From IMG/VR virus record IMGVR_UViG_3300020129_000301, positions 1-22,119 of that record: a stretch of DNA of 22,119 nucleotides. One strand, written 5' to 3'. Source of the DNA: a virus. Numbering within the stretch: position 1 is the first letter of the stretch; each line of letters begins with the position of its first letter. Both the position numbers and the translations under genes were made by a program. This document shows, in pieces, positions 6,641 through 19,558 of the stretch. Under the pieces are notes generated by a model, which saw only the letters and a list, made by a program, of their open reading frames with translations, made no database searches and had not been told where the DNA came from.

Positions 6641-6733
6641 AGAGGTTGCCGAGCGCCTCGTCGGAAACGCAGCGCCCTAGGGGGACACAGTCCCCGCACT
6701 GGGTACGGGAAACGGTTAGGCGCTCGGTTTTTT
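6641..6733. ncRNA. Structured RNA element between portal and its upstream gene
   Basis: A perfect 10-base stem (6649-6658 with 6718-6727, CCGAGCGCCT/AGGCGCTCGG) encloses a second hairpin, GGGGA-CACAG-TCCCC (6681-6695), itself flanked by CAGCGC/GCACTG. On the plus strand the element ends in six T residues (6728-6733), like a terminated small RNA. On the minus strand the inner flank pairs completely through a G-U wobble, which instead favours a folded leader of the portal mRNA. No protein frame explains the segment. I cannot decide the strand; the fold is direct, the function unknown. Confidence 0.4.
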
Positions 6734-8657
6734 ATTGCTCGTTATCTCGCGCCAGGCCGAGCCCCAGTAGCGACAGCGGCGGCAGCGTCAGATAACCAAA
6801 CGACCCAGGATTGGGACGCGGGCGCGTCGGCTTCAGCGAAACCACCTCATCGTCACCGGTCACCTTGCCGTAGGTCTTATGGCCCGACAGCGTGTGCTCG
6901 CGGCTGACCTCGCGGAGCTGCTCGCGCGACATCGCCGGCATACGCTCCAGGCCGGGGAACATGTTTTCGTGTGGCTCCAGACGATTACGGATGCGGTCCC
7001 ACAGCGCCCACTGCCCGCCGAATAGGCCGAGACCTCGGCTCGCTGCATCCTGCGCGTTCCAATCGAGCGCCCGATGATAGGCATCACCCATGATGTTGAC
7101 GTTGGTCGGCTCGACCGGGAAATCAGCATTGGCCAGATATGGCGGAATATTCTTGTTGACTTCACCCTTGGCGGTGCGGAACAGCGGCTGCGACGAGGCG
7201 CCGACATATTCAAGCTTCATGCCACCGAGGAAGCCATCGCTGCCCGAGGTGTTCAGCAGCTGCTGATAGCTATCGACCTGCTTGTTGTTGTTTTCCTTCA
7301 TCTTGTTCCAACGCTCGACCGCGCGCTGCTCAAACGCTGCACGTTCCTCCGGCGTCTTGAATAGACCAACCTGTCGGTCAAACTCGTTGACCATATGACG
7401 ATCGATCGCCGAGATGTCGGCCTTGGCCGGATCTTGCCAGACACCGCTGAGTGACCCTGTCTTTGCCGACAGGCCCTTGACCTGGGAGGTAAGGCGCTCG
7501 ACGTACTGGTCCCATGGTTCGCCGGCTTTCTTGGCAAACCATTCTGGTTTCTCTTTGTACATCTGCGCCAGCTCGGCAATGCGGGTGTAGTCGGTGGTGC
7601 CGCGCGAGCCGAGCCCGCCTTTCTCACCAGACTGCAAACCAAACATGCTGGCGACGCGATCGTTGTATTCCTTGCGGACTTCCTTCGGCACCGTCTCACC
7701 AACCTTCCACGGGATCGAGCCGGCGAGCTGATCGAGCAGCTGCGGATCACGTAGGCGCAGGATCGAGCTGGTGAGTTGATTAGGAAACAGCGGATTGTTG
7801 GGCGAGGTCATGCCGAACATCAGGCCTTGCCAAACTTGCGCTGGCGACGCGCCTTCCTCCGGCGTCATAGTGCGCAGCAGTTTCGAGTGGATTTGGCTGT
7901 GCAGCTGCGGATCGATGCGAGCCGGATCGATGGCATCAGCTTTCATCCGCAGCAGATCATAGTAGGTGAATTTGCCTTCCAGGCCGCCAGGGATGTTGAA
8001 CGTACCAGTGTCGCTGTAGGGAAACGCGGTCGCCTTGCTCTCCGGCCCCAGGTTGGGAATACCAAAGTTTTTTCCCACCTCTTCCCACTGCTGCGGTGTC
8101 CATTCGGCCGGCGATTTGCCCTTGTAGGTAAACGGAATATTGTCGAGCGTGTTCATCGAGCCGCGCAGATCGGGATTGCCGAGCAACATCTGTGCTTCAG
8201 GTGTCGGCGGCGGCACATGCTCCCAGAACCGCAGCGCATTCGGCGCCAACCGCGCGTCTTGCACCGCCATAGCCGAGGCCTCGGCTCGAGTTGCCGGCGC
8301 CATAGCTTTGCCGGCGGCAGCAACAGCGGGGCCGAGCTTCGGAGCGCCATAAGCTTCGCCAGGATCGAGCAGCATCGACACTGTCGGTGCAGCGAGACGC
8401 GACAGCATGCTGCCGCCCATGCCGGCGCCGGTAGCCCAGCTCGCGTACTTGGCCGCCTCGCCCATGCGCTGCTCGGCGATCGCCTGGGCGGCGCGATCGA
8501 TCGGGATATGGCGCTGGCCAGCCAGACGCGCAGCAGCGCGCTCGAACACATCGCCGAGGCCACCAACCGTCGTCGGCGCCTCGTACTGCGCGCCCTCCAG
8601 CCAATCCGGCGCGCCGCGTTCGAACAGCCCGCCAATATCGGAGAGATTAGACGCCAC
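6732..8657 (-). CDS. Large uncharacterised protein between terminase and portal genes
   Basis: The protein has 641 residues from GTG 8657, which has GGAGAGG upstream; a TTG at 8672 is the alternative, and no ATG is nearby. The gene overlaps the end of the preceding one by 11 bases. I do not recognise it. Residues ~1-150 are Ala-rich and helical. The middle has 'YYDLLRMKADAIDPARIDPQLHSQIHSKLLRTMTPEEG' followed by 'QGLMFGMTSPNNPLFPNQLT', which reads like a globular enzyme-like core. Near residue 540 comes 'DAYHRALDWNAQDAASRGLGLFGGQWALWDRIRNRLEPHENMFPG'. There is no signal peptide or convincing membrane segment. A place between terminase and portal suggests a virion or packaging-associated protein, possibly ejected with DNA, but that is inference from position. 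Confidence 0.65.
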   Translation of the reverse strand: MASNLSDIGGLFERGAPDWLEGAQYEAPTTVGGLGDVFERAAARLAGQRHIPIDRAAQAIAEQRMGEAAKYASWATGAGMGGSMLSRLAAPTVSMLLDPGEAYGAPKLGPAVAAAGKAMAPATRAEASAMAVQDARLAPNALRFWEHVPPPTPEAQMLLGNPDLRGSMNTLDNIPFTYKGKSPAEWTPQQWEEVGKNFGIPNLGPESKATAFPYSDTGTFNIPGGLEGKFTYYDLLRMKADAIDPARIDPQLHSQIHSKLLRTMTPEEGASPAQVWQGLMFGMTSPNNPLFPNQLTSSILRLRDPQLLDQLAGSIPWKVGETVPKEVRKEYNDRVASMFGLQSGEKGGLGSRGTTDYTRIAELAQMYKEKPEWFAKKAGEPWDQYVERLTSQVKGLSAKTGSLSGVWQDPAKADISAIDRHMVNEFDRQVGLFKTPEERAAFEQRAVERWNKMKENNNKQVDSYQQLLNTSGSDGFLGGMKLEYVGASSQPLFRTAKGEVNKNIPPYLANADFPVEPTNVNIMGDAYHRALDWNAQDAASRGLGLFGGQWALWDRIRNRLEPHENMFPGLERMPAMSREQLREVSREHTLSGHKTYGKVTGDDEVVSLKPTRPRPNPGSFGYLTLPPLSLLGLGLARDNEQ

Positions 8658-9054
8658 GGACCCCTCTCCCAATCATCGACAGACGTGTGCCGCCGCCGAG
8701 CTGCAGCTGCGGGAGCTGCGGCACCTGTCGCGCTCGCGGTGCGCGCAAGCCGGCGAGGAAGTTCATCAGATAATTTGGTTGCTGTTGCGGTGGTGTCACC
8801 GCCTGCGGCGGCGGGCTGAAATTGGGTGGCCCGAGCTGCGGTGGTGCAGCCGGCGACGCCGGCACCGCAGCCGGCGACGTTGCGGTGTTGGCACCGTACT
8901 GCCGCATGAAGTCCATCGTCGACATCGGCGGCTGTGGCCCGCCGCTGAACGGCGCCCAGGCGCCGAGCACGCGCGAATATTCCGGCGTGTAGGCGTTCAT
9001 CTCGCCGAGCGTCGGAAACCAGCTACCACCACCACCGAGATCATCGAGGGCCAT
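8647..9054 (-). CDS. Small Pro/Gly-rich hypothetical protein downstream of large terminase
   Basis: The protein has 135 residues from ATG 9054, five bases after the terminase stop (TAG-TC-ATG), so it is cotranscribed and probably translated by reinitiation. The N-terminal third is ordered-looking (GGGGSWFPTLGEMNAYTPEYSRVLGAW). Residues ~55-95 are a low-complexity Pro/Ala/Gln linker, and the end is basic (LRAPRARQVPQLPQLQLGG...MIGRGVRGV). No domain is recognised. It could be a minor virion component or an accessory of the following ~640-residue protein, whose start it overlaps. Confidence 0.6.
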   Translation of the reverse strand: MALDDLGGGGSWFPTLGEMNAYTPEYSRVLGAWAPFSGGPQPPMSTMDFMRQYGANTATSPAAVPASPAAPPQLGPPNFSPPPQAVTPPQQQPNYLMNFLAGLRAPRARQVPQLPQLQLGGGTRLSMIGRGVRGV

Positions 9055-12863: not shown

Positions 12864-13328
12864 CTACTTCTTGCCGGGCGGCAGCGGCTTGCCGCCGGGT
12901 GGGAAGTAACCCCAGCCGTAATCCGGGTGATAGCCCCAACCACCTTCAGGCGGCGGCGGCTTGGCACCCTCAGCCGGCGGCTGCGGCCCCTGCTCCGGCG
13001 GCGGGATCACGATCGGATGCGAGGGTCGGCCGGGGCTCGGCCAGATGCTGATCGGCCCGCCCGGCGCGATCGGCGGTGTCGGCCACGGCAGCGGCGCGCC
13101 ACCCCAATATCCCGGAGGCTGACCTCCAGGCGCAATCGGGTGGGTCGGCAGCGGCGGTGCCACGCCGCCCCAGTAACCCGGGGGCGGGCCACCCGGGGCA
13201 ATCGGATGCGTTGGCCATGGCGGCGCAACACCACCCCAATAACCGGGCGGTGGTCCGCCGGGCGCGATCGGATGCGTCGGCGCCAAGCTGGTGTCGATCG
13301 GCACGATAAAGCATAGTACTGGCTGCAT
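12864..13328 (-). CDS. Proline-rich repeat protein
   Basis: The protein has 154 residues from ATG 13328, which has GAGGAGGT 6 bases upstream. After 'MQPVLCFIVPIDTSLA' it consists of three near-identical 22-residue repeats of the form PTHPIAPGGPPPGYWGGVAPPW, a fourth partial repeat, a linker (ISIWPSPGRPSHPIVIPPPEQGPQ), and 'GWGYHPDYGWGYFPPGGKPLPPGKK'. Proteins with serial SHPIAPGG/THPIAPGG motifs and a final W-x-Y-x-P-x-YGW segment occur in many phages and prophages (from memory). They are presumed to be extended, surface-exposed or structural; function unproven. It is transcribed leftward, alone, from the gene-poor stretch at 13329-13874. Confidence 0.75.
   Translation of the reverse strand: MQPVLCFIVPIDTSLAPTHPIAPGGPPPGYWGGVAPPWPTHPIAPGGPPPGYWGGVAPPLPTHPIAPGGQPPGYWGGAPLPWPTPPIAPGGPISIWPSPGRPSHPIVIPPPEQGPQPPAEGAKPPPPEGGWGYHPDYGWGYFPPGGKPLPPGKK
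13083..13280 (-). repeat. Three tandem 66-base coding repeats
   Basis: Three in-frame 66-base units (13280-13215, 13214-13149, 13148-13083) encode the PTHPIAPGG...YWGG repeats of the Pro-rich protein. Units differ mainly at synonymous sites and at one Pro/Gln and several end residues, so unit number could vary by recombination. Confidence 0.8.
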
Positions 13329-13874
13329 GGTCTTACCTCCTCGCGTTTGGTGGGTACCTACTCTAAAACACAACCTTGTTTGGTTGCCGCAAATTTGATC
13401 TCAACCGGGATCACAAGCAACCCCAACCAGCTACCCAAAATCAGGTCAGTGGTGCTGTCTTGACACCTCGAATTTACCAGCGCCCCCCTCGCGCGCGGCT
13501 CCCCCACCCGCCGAAACCCGGCTCACCCGAGAGACCAAGGCTCGATGGGCCGCCAAGACCCGGCCTCATCCAGATACCGTACGTTCCGCTCGGCCGCGCC
13601 CGGCTGAAACAGCCCCGTTGGGGCCCCTCAAAGGGGGTGATGCCCACATACCCCCATGGGAAGCAAGGGCACATACCCCCGTGGGAGGGCCCAAGCACAG
13701 GCTGGCTCCGCCGATGCGGTCTGACCCCGATAGGGAGGGGGGGGTGCAGAGGGTGATCGATGCCAAGCCCTTGAAATCGCTGAGGTTTCTCAGTTGATGG
13801 GCTCGAGGTGTGACACGCCAACGAACCTTGACGTGTTACACAACCCGGCTGTTATGAGGCCTAAGTCCTTGATA
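13329..13874. other. Gene-poor stretch with repeats, downstream of candidate small terminase
   Basis: No convincing gene is seen here: open frames on both strands are Pro/Arg/Gly-biased, lack ribosome binding sites and look like GC artefacts. It contains a 17-base near-repeat (13645-13661 and 13670-13686, one mismatch). A 24-base direct repeat with four mismatches (13765-13788 and 13863-13886) lies evenly on both sides of the 22-base inverted-repeat site at 13816-13837. There are also G/C runs, with eight or more G near 13736-13744. It could hold a packaging site or recombination site; nothing proves either. Confidence 0.5.
13808..13841. repeat. Dyad site; left copy of a 22-base exact inverted repeat
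   Basis: GTGTGACACG and CGTGTTACAC (9 of 10 complementary) flank the 14-base core CCAACGAACCTTGA. Bases 13816-13837 recur exactly, in opposite orientation, at 20574-20595. The arrangement of imperfect arms around an asymmetric core resembles a site-specific recombination site; a regulator site is the alternative. Confidence 0.6.
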
Positions 13875-14917: not shown

Positions 14918-14954
14918 CTTGTCAGTTGACAAGTAGTGCTTGGCCTGTTACAGC
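14918..14954 (+). promoter_or_regulatory. Recombinase promoter overlapped by a palindromic operator
   Basis: The -35 TTGACA (14926-14931), a 17-base spacer and TACAGC (14949-14954) point to the recombinase gene. The perfect dyad CTTGTCA-GT-TGACAAG (14918-14933) covers the -35 box, so a bound protein would block it. The spacer end is shared with the promoter at 10592-10620. The dyad differs from the ACAC/GTGT operators, so another regulator is likely, perhaps the HTH protein at 15916 or the recombinase. Confidence 0.5.
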
Positions 14955-14999
14955 TGCGTCATCGCCGTTGGCACGGCGACCAATGAGTGGAGCAAAGTC

Positions 15000-15632
15000 A
15001 TGAACGCAATCGCATACATCAGGGTTTCGACCGAGAAGCAGGGTCGCTCCGGGCTCGGCCTGGAGGCGCAGCGCGCGGCGCTGGCGCGGTTCGCTGCTGC
15101 CGAGAACTACGTGTTCGCTGCCGAGCATGTCGAGGTCGAGAGCGGCACCGACGACAACCGGCCGCAGCTCAAGGCCGCGATCGATGCCGCCAAGAAGGCC
15201 GGCGTGCCGGTGATCGTTGCCAAGCTCGATCGGCTGTCGCGCGACGTGCATTTCATCTCCGGCCTGATGCGGCACAAGGTGCCGTTCATCGTCGCCGAGC
15301 TGGGCCGCGACACCGATCCGTTCCTGCTGCACATCTACGCCGCGCTGGCCGAGAAAGAGCGCGCCATGATCTCGCGGCGCACCACCGACGCTCTGGCTGC
15401 GGCCAAGGCCCGCGGCATCAAGATCGGCGGTCACCGCGCCCAGTCCGATGCCAACGCCCAGGGGGCGCAAGCTCGCGCCGAGGCGCTGCGCGATATCTTC
15501 GCGCAGATGACCACCCTGTCGCATCGCGAGGCGGCGCGCGCTCTCAACGACAACGGCATCGCCACCGCGCAGGGCAACGCCTGGACCGCGGTGCAGGTGA
15601 CGCGGGTTCGCAACCGACTGGAGGTGCAGTGA
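15000..15632 (+). CDS. Small serine recombinase (resolvase/invertase family)
   Basis: The protein has 210 residues from ATG 15000, six bases after TGAGTGGAGC. The resolvase catalytic domain covers ~1-145: [11 protein letters not shown] with nucleophile Ser10 and Arg8, then [12 protein letters not shown] (residues 71-82; Asp77, Arg78, Arg81), and [16 protein letters not shown] (E-helix). A basic linker follows, then a short C-terminal helical DNA-binding part ([35 protein letters not shown]) resembling the Recombinase-domain start, not a large-serine-integrase tail. It cuts and rejoins DNA at paired short sites. With only ~65 C-terminal residues it suits resolution or inversion; phage integration cannot be excluded. 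Two tiny membrane genes follow at once. An exact inverted repeat pair (13816, 20574) brackets it and could be its target. Confidence 0.9.
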
Positions 15633-17873: not shown

Positions 17874-18182
17874 TCATCGTCGCACGTCGTTTTCAAAATA
17901 CTTGCACGCTAGATTGCCGCGGCTGATCACCGGACCATGCTTGCCAGTGAGCGCCTTGAACATCTCGCAGCCACAGTAGTGATAAAACTTGCGAAAGAAA
18001 CTGTCGGTTTTTTGATCATAGTACTCACGCTGCCCCTGCCGTGAGTAGCCACGATGGGCGCAGCTGCCGCAAGTCTTGCCGGCGGGACCAGTGCCAGGAA
18101 AGTGCGCCATGCCGCGCGCCGTGTTCACGTCCTCGCTATTCGGCACGCCATCAATTCTGGTGAGGTTAGCTGTCATGATCAT
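17874..18182 (-). CDS. Cys-containing phage hypothetical protein (GTGPAGKTCGSCAHRGY)
   Basis: The protein has 102 residues from ATG 18182, overlapping the upstream stop (ATGA). The pattern ARGMAHFPGTGPAGKTCGSCAHRGY, then YHYCGCEMFKALTGKHGPVI, then LACKYFE carries conserved-looking Cys residues (about C38, C41, C70, C72, C93) that could bind zinc or an iron-sulfur cluster. From memory, proteins with this GKTCG-C-RGY...CxKF..MTGxHGP...ACKYFE order are frequent in alphaproteobacterial prophages. Function unknown. It sits just downstream of the replication genes in the early operon. Confidence 0.75.
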   Translation of the reverse strand: MIMTANLTRIDGVPNSEDVNTARGMAHFPGTGPAGKTCGSCAHRGYSRQGQREYYDQKTDSFFRKFYHYCGCEMFKALTGKHGPVISRGNLACKYFENDVRR

Positions 18183-18694
18183 CCATCGGCGGGTGGTTCT
18201 TCGTGCTTGCCGTAGATTGCCGTCAGCTCCTCGCCGGTGAGCCGGCGGAATGTGCTCACGGCCTGCTCGGTCTCGGGCGGTAGATGCGCGGCGTGATACT
18301 CGCGCATGATCCGCTCAGTGACGCCGCGACGGTGCTCCAGGCTCTCACCACCGCGATCGAGCTCGAGCCGCTCGGCGAGCTGTTTGCGCGACTGTTCCTC
18401 CCACTGCGCGGCGTAGCCGAATGCCTGCCGGGTCGAGGCCAGCAGTTCATCGCAGTGCTTTCGAATGAGCGGCGTCGGCGGCGGGAACGTCGGGCTCGCT
18501 GCCATCGCCGCGTCGAGGCCGGCTTGCGCTACCTGACCCGAATAGTCCTGCAGCATCGTCACGATTGTGCTGGCATACTCGGCCATCCCCGGCAATCCTT
18601 GTGCCGACGGGTAGGAGGAGATGACCATGCGCGCGAGCGCCGTCGCCTTCTCTTTGCTGGTCGGCACGACCGTAGAGATATTGCTCGACGCCAT
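18179..18694 (-). CDS. Probable replication-associated protein (helicase-loader-like position)
   Basis: The protein has 171 residues from ATG 18694, which has GGGAGGT five bases upstream. It reads KATALARMVISSYPSAQGLPGMAEYASTIVTMLQDYSGQVAQAGLDAAMAASPTFPPPTPLIRKHCDEL, a helical pattern (Y-P...Y...L-x3-V...A...FPPxxxLI) shared by phage proteins found next to replication initiators, followed by a long Arg/Glu-rich helix and 'FRRLTGEELTAIYGKH'. Position right after a replication-initiator-like gene suggests a lambda P-like helicase loader. Family assignment is not secure. The coding strand is supported by couplings at both ends. Confidence 0.65.
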   Translation of the reverse strand: MASSNISTVVPTSKEKATALARMVISSYPSAQGLPGMAEYASTIVTMLQDYSGQVAQAGLDAAMAASPTFPPPTPLIRKHCDELLASTRQAFGYAAQWEEQSRKQLAERLELDRGGESLEHRRGVTERIMREYHAAHLPPETEQAVSTFRRLTGEELTAIYGKHEEPPADG

Positions 18695-18797
18695 CGAGTA
18701 CCTCCCTGTTTCGTTCTTTGATTGTTTGCTTGCGCTGGCCGCGCTGCCGGAACGGCGAGGTCACCCAGTTGCGCCAAACCGCATGCCAGTCGGCCAT
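18447..18797 (-). pseudogene. C-terminal part of the replication protein, beyond an in-frame amber codon
   Basis: In the same frame as 18834-19214, right after TAG 18836-18834, the sequence continues RCRNHWLANGKPMADWHAVW and then RNWVTSPF. This is the usual C-terminal motif of phage replication-initiator proteins (RFRNHWLAKG..DW.A.WRNW). An ATG at 18797 could restart translation. Beyond about residue 50 the frame runs on antitypically into the next gene, so the natural end is unclear. Either the gene is broken, the codon is read through, or the sequence has an error at this base. Confidence 0.55.
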
Positions 18798-18833
18798 CGG
18801 CTTGCCATTGGCCAGCCAGTGGTTCCGGCACCG

Positions 18834-19214
18834 CTACCCTTCGATTTCGATCTGGTCGTCGCCGAGCCCGCGTGAGCGGGCGTAGGCGCGGTCTTGGTCG
18901 TCGGGAACCCAATTTGGCGAAATGAGCCCTCTTAACTTACTTTCTTTCTTTCTTTCTTTCTTACTTATAGGGACCACGCTGTGACCGTCACGTGACGTCA
19001 CGTGACCGTCACGTGATGTCACGGTGTTCCTGGCGCGCCAGTCCCGCATCTTGGCGGCATGCCGTTCACGACGCTCGGCGGCAATCCGTTGCTGCTCGGC
19101 AGCCGCGTTCCGTTGCTCGGCGACCAGCCTCAGCTCCGCGATCATGGTCGCAACCTTTTCGATCGCCGCGACCGACATCCCCTTCGCCACCATCTCGCCG
19201 ATCAAATCGTTCAT
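18834..19214 (-). CDS. Replication-initiator-like protein, N-terminal part ending at an amber codon
   Basis: The protein has 126 residues from ATG 19214, overlapping the nuclease gene stop (ATGA), with a G-rich binding site. The N-terminus is helical (MNDLIGEMVAKGMSVAAIEKVATMIAELRLVAEQRNAAAEQQRIAAERRERHAAKMRDWRARN). It is followed by a tandem VTSRDGH repeat and a KKERKKES linker, then 'LRGLISPNWVPDDQDRAYARSRGLGDDQIEIEG'. The LPxNWxPxxxDxxYAxxxGLxDxxI motif is that of lambda O-like/phage replication proteins, which normally continue through RNHW to WRNW. Here a TAG interrupts, and the expected continuation lies in frame beyond it. Without it the protein loses its conserved C-terminal motif. 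Confidence 0.65.
   Translation of the reverse strand: MNDLIGEMVAKGMSVAAIEKVATMIAELRLVAEQRNAAAEQQRIAAERRERHAAKMRDWRARNTVTSRDGHVTSRDGHSVVPISKKERKKESKLRGLISPNWVPDDQDRAYARSRGLGDDQIEIEG
18941..18960 (-). repeat. Tetranucleotide repeat (GAAA)5 in coding sequence
   Basis: Five TTTC units on the plus strand (GAAA on the coding strand) encode the KKERKKE linker of the replication protein. Gain or loss of a unit shifts the frame, so the tract is a potential slippage site. Confidence 0.85.
18981..19022 (-). repeat. Tandem 21-base repeat in coding sequence
   Basis: Two 21-base units (18981-19001, 19002-19022) differ at one base and encode VTSRDGH twice. Each unit is rich in GTCACGTGAC-type palindromes, so the DNA itself may be bound as a short iteron-like array inside the replication gene. 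Confidence 0.8.
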
Positions 19215-19558
19215 GGTACCCCCCATGCAGCCAGTACGTTCAGCGCCTCGTCCATGCCGTAGGCGACCTGATACTTGCCCTGGCACATCTCGACCTCGAT
19301 CCCGCGCGCAACCTGGGCATCGCTCAGCCGGCCGCGCTCGGTCTTGAGTTCCAACTCGAAATACATGCCCTGCGGCGACAGCAGCGAGATGTCGCCAAGC
19401 CCCGGCAACATGCCCTGGCGCTTCAGTTCCGCGCCCAGCCGGCCCGATCGGATACCGGCATTGAGGTTGGCCCACACCGACCAGCCCCGGCGCCGAGCAA
19501 ATTGCAGCCGCTGCATCACGGCTCGCTGCATCTGCGCCTCGGGGGCGCGCCGCATCAT
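19211..19558 (-). CDS. VRR-NUC family nuclease
   Basis: The protein has 115 residues from ATG 19558 (TGATGATG overlap with the Cro-like gene). 'NAGIRSGRLGAELKRQGMLPGLGDISLLSPQGMYFELELKTERGRLSDAQ' is the VRR-NUC core of phage type. It has the PD-(D/E)xK elements D56 (GLGDISLL), E70-x-K72 (ELELKTERGRLS) and Q82 (DAQ), and a size usual for stand-alone phage members (~90-130 residues). The enzyme is expected to cleave branched or flap DNA with a metal ion and help replication or recombination. It follows the Cro-like regulator and precedes the replication-initiator-like gene, a common early order. Confidence 0.88.
   Translation of the reverse strand: MMRRAPEAQMQRAVMQRLQFARRRGWSVWANLNAGIRSGRLGAELKRQGMLPGLGDISLLSPQGMYFELELKTERGRLSDAQVARGIEVEMCQGKYQVAYGMDEALNVLAAWGVP

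Follow-up and report, generated by a model that had tools for sequence, protein, structure and literature searches.

The C-terminal domain found in the DnaT-like family PF17948 and in PHROG 3992 and PHROG 1408 shares the pattern W102, F129 and DWxAxWR-W with the phage replication gene described here, direct homologues of which match these families, and the copy described here differs from them in carrying a stop and a Cys within the domain. Lambdoid phages have repeats and an A/T-rich tract midway along the replication gene, with the origin located within the lambda O gene (PMC7466680). Errors in low-coverage metagenome consensus sequences form a further relevant class. On the Illumina platform, which may not be the one behind the present sequence, the G and T signals are correlated and inverted repeats and GGC trigger errors (PMC4381044); G/T base-call confusion through a shared laser and additional errors at such sites are documented (PMC4381044; PMC4787001), and C>A, i.e., G>T, errors have been linked to 8-oxoG, an oxidised guanine (PMC5994075).

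The analysed stretch of DNA (hereafter the window) is a virus contig of 22,119 bases, without further sequence. On its minus strand, a frame whose start, ATG 19214, shares an ATGA overlap with the 3' end of a VRR-NUC-like nuclease gene runs for 126 codons and is interrupted by TAG at 18836-18834, as the original prediction stated and as the deposited sequence reads. Past the TAG the same frame continues as RCRNHWLANGKPMADWHAVWRNWVTSPF..., stays open as far as 18449 and enters the next gene, whose start is at 18694. The parts of the locus are as follows.

19211-19558, minus strand: upstream VRR-NUC-like nuclease gene, coupled by an ATGA overlap; syntenic in contigs L005 and L206
18834-19214, minus strand: frame before the stop, 126 codons, with an N-terminal helix, a linker and the first part of the DnaT-like domain
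18834-18836, minus strand: in-frame TAG, codon 127 of the replication-protein frame; E, D, A, K or Q in relatives and a stop in 0/124
18828-18830, minus strand: codon 129, TGC (Cys), a second improper codon beside the stop; Phe in 122/124 relatives
18447-18833, minus strand: frame after the stop, comprising what remains of the DnaT-like domain, as far as about 18760, and an open tail that overlaps the next gene
18179-18694, minus strand: next gene, overlapped by the replication-protein frame; L206 homologue at 35%

With an X placed at the stop, the frame aligned to the homologue of syntenic contig L005 over 140 residues at 43% identity (E 6e-21; residues 40-174), straight through the stop. L082 (E 2e-11), L003 and L080 gave weaker matches than L005, each directly across the stop. 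Judged by these alignments to L005 and L082, the continuation beyond the TAG is true homology instead of chance, which bears out the earlier remark that the frame goes on after it. L005 has the same gene order (nuclease gene, replication gene and overlapping next gene), and its frame is uninterrupted. The extension into the next gene had raised the possibility of a frameshift at the 3' end; this was dropped, as L080 and L206, like L005, show the same overlap.

The assignment as a replication protein follows from the match of the L005 homologue to the Pfam DnaT family PF17948 over the same region as the stop (E 0.0016; 18.6 bits, under the cut-off of 25) and from the PHROG matches of the L080, L082 and L003 homologues to primosomal and replication initiation proteins, strongly so for PHROG 3992. 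The name given in the original prediction thus holds, with weak direct evidence and good indirect evidence from these relatives: the window protein has no match in Pfam and reached only E 0.31 against PHROG 3992, so that neither it nor the L005 homologue attains a curated score cut-off. Its C-terminal domain is alignable with the W, F and DWxAxWRxW of the family, the exceptions being F129 and a common D131N. A search among solved structures returned no convincing match, and in the model predicted for the L005 homologue only the domain has high confidence (residues 71-130, pLDDT 82-95). Close relatives of the gene were found neither among viral contigs, by peptide and degenerate-DNA searches, nor in phage records, and one plasmid match was obtained. 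At the syntenic place after the nuclease gene, L206 (3336-4150) and L208-L210 (after 3336) carry a replication gene with a similar short N-terminal helix and a different C-terminal sequence, in what looks like a modular exchange; these loci likewise run on to the next gene.

To learn what relatives carry at the stop, a five-sequence alignment was scanned against genome and viral collections, yielding 124 usable relatives. None of the 124 has a stop codon anywhere in the aligned stretch, a count to be read with the design of the scan, since the genome scan required the downstream DWxAxWR motif, so that relatives truly ending at the stop could escape it, and the viral scan also had a second pattern around the stop. 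The original prediction had allowed for relatives in which the protein ends naturally at this position, and this comparison returned no such ending within the domain. In column 127, the stop column, the 124 relatives carry E (34), D (34), A (14), K (11), Q (7) and others, with one aromatic residue and a gap in seven. The family residue is thus mostly Glu or Asp (68/124), and the suggestion that TAC would restore an expected aromatic residue fails, the aromatic Phe being located two codons downstream. This Phe, at column 129, is Cys in the window. TAG and TGC lie within nine bases, and a single G/T change separates each of them from a family codon (GAG and TTC, respectively). The strongly conserved W102, P104, A112, R130, G137, D142, W143, A145, W147, R148 and W150 are all kept, indicating that the domain is not in general decay, and Asn131 is shared with 24 of the 124 relatives.

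The TAG is not a functional signal. Its most likely source is an error in sequencing or an isolated broken copy, not new biology. Of these, we favour error as the probable, though far from certain, explanation: TAG and TGC would both be G/T base errors fixed in a single metagenome consensus, and the gene of the true phage would be intact. Codon 127 would originally have been a sense codon, usually acidic in relatives, which a G/T change turned into TAG, and a second G/T error nearby would have converted the invariant Phe codon 129 to Cys. Confused base calls or oxidation of guanine may have been the cause, in a stretch of thin coverage beside an inverted repeat, with the errors subsequently fixed into one metagenome consensus. 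In the true phage, translation from 19214 would then give an unbroken DnaT-like replication protein whose frame reaches into the beginning of the next gene. The inverted repeat consists of two 13-nt arms.

18741-18753: first arm of the 13-nt inverted repeat
18822-18834: partner arm, adjoining the TAG and including codon 129

Allowing up to two mismatches, the window contains no second copy of the altered stretch, and the idea that it had been copied from another position there was rejected.

Sister contig L004 supplied the comparison that carries the error explanation. It is 98.9% identical to the window across 10.4 kb and ends inside the terminase gene, thus not extending to the replication gene, over which no second contig of the same phage was found in the viral contigs. 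Some 95 sites differ between the two, almost all of those in structural genes being synonymous. L004 itself carries GAG>TAG at codon 755 of the portal gene, a position that is Glu in 6/6 aligned relatives, and GAA>TAA at codon 159 of the gene at window 6732-8672; these stops lie at L004 6830 and 2994 (window 4362 and 8198), where the window is open. The window in turn has one missense change of its own.

5327, minus strand: portal Gly433>Val, a G>T missense change unique to the window; Gly in L004 and in 9/9 aligned relatives

Among single-base codon differences in the structural genes, read on the coding strand, G/T accounted for all three of the amino-acid-changing ones and for one of the 53 synonymous ones (Fisher p=1.4e-4, or p=0.003 with A/C pooled with G/T), in a test with small numbers that was designed after the changes had been seen. 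The pattern says that these isolated harmful changes arise by a process other than that of the substitutions separating the two phages. The nonsense codons of L004 are probably errors of the same kind, and the portal Gly433>Val in the window is a probable base error; isolated deleterious G/T changes in strongly conserved genes, as seen in both contigs, resemble the errors of low-coverage metagenome consensus sequences. The stray GAG>TAG and GAA>TAA of L004 make an error or a very recent lesion the better choice for the TAG of the window, and the single-base error listed among the early options is favoured by these lesions and the G/T pattern. Against the error reading, the ancestral base of codon 127 is a guess, G>T is also a natural type of mutation, and the 10.4 kb common with L004 contain one clear suspicious change, so that two within 9 bases need local clustering.

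The other leading option from the outset, a recent true nonsense mutation through which the sampled phage or prophage has a broken replication gene, is possible but rather unlikely; unless it is a dead end, such a molecule would depend on a helper, a host protein or a suppressor host. The otherwise conserved domain is what a very recent hit would leave, the second damaged codon, F129C, fits relaxed constraint, and a consensus built from few molecules in a metagenome can catch deleterious alleles. A temperate phage may be indicated by the open frame at 14940-15632, whose translation resembles a serine recombinase of the resolvase type. However, the structural genes of the window are open and under strong purifying selection relative to L004, and with their almost exclusively synonymous differences the label of a defective prophage proposed at first does not suit them. 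The independent nonsense codons of L004, one of them in the portal gene, are difficult to account for as live biology.

Programmed or suppressed read-through of the TAG, giving a short and a long replication protein, is very unlikely. The frame beyond the stop is open and conserved, and the TAG is directly followed by a stable structure (fold of 18740-18836, z -3.1), yet this score was equalled in 15 of 368 other folding windows of the contig, and the structure was set aside as a signal, being present but not rare in a GC-rich contig. Programmed read-through, included among the original options, goes with a stop conserved among relatives, and here 0/124 have one; it also leaves the loss of the invariant downstream Phe unexplained. 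This contig uses TAG as an ordinary stop, at the end of the terminase gene and of the frames at 2763, 14702, 17407, 16381 and 17213, and the first reading of TAG as a normal stop for the terminase, 14702 and 17407 was thus correct. Amber-recoded phages are marked by avoidance of TAG and a suppressor tRNA, and the window displays neither, as the suggested search for such a tRNA turned up no tRNA at all in this possibly incomplete 22 kb contig. General recoding had been judged not likely, and the use of TAG in terminase and several other frames agrees with this. A newly arisen leaky stop before the stable RNA structure, which would produce short and long forms in this one lineage, is highly improbable.

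Hardly credible is a pair of proteins, one of 126 residues ending at the TAG and a second restarting at the in-frame ATG 18797 as proposed earlier, because the stop falls inside one predicted helix (residues 99-116 of the L005 homologue, holding E107 and F109) of a confidently modelled domain, the restart would drop most of the domain and leave a downstream piece without the conserved Phe helix, and all syntenic relatives keep a single frame. Compared across these sequences, read-through, recoding and a two-polypeptide gene have no support.

The stray lesions of the two sister contigs thus differ from each other but are of one base type, which urges caution with metagenome phage contigs: before a single stop is taken for read-through or recoding, it needs a check against sister contigs and against the conserved residues around it.

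The replication gene also gave a testable lead, namely candidate origins within the gene across the family.

18936-19022, minus strand: linker in which two 21-nt palindromic repeats (18981-19022) lie beside an A-rich tract (18936-18963), a candidate in-gene origin

Repeated 7-mers in the 60-codon linker exceeded synonymous-codon permutations (p<=0.05) in 33 of 123 relatives versus 8 of 219 control segments taken from other open frames (Fisher 6e-10), where not every control frame is an established gene and the relatives are not independent; the linker of the window itself gave p=0.032. Iteron-like palindromic repeats with an A-rich tract were observed in this linker and in those of relatives such as L126, L128, L158 and L082. 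The repeats and the tract are a candidate for a family-wide origin inside the replication gene in the style of lambda O, in which repeats and an A/T-rich tract are likewise placed mid-gene. The window differs from lambda O in its protein family and in having only two 21-nt repeats, and its origin role is putative.

Elsewhere in the window, 12864-13373 is an open frame of tandem HPIAPGGPPPGYWGG-like units, of which the opposite strand is open too.
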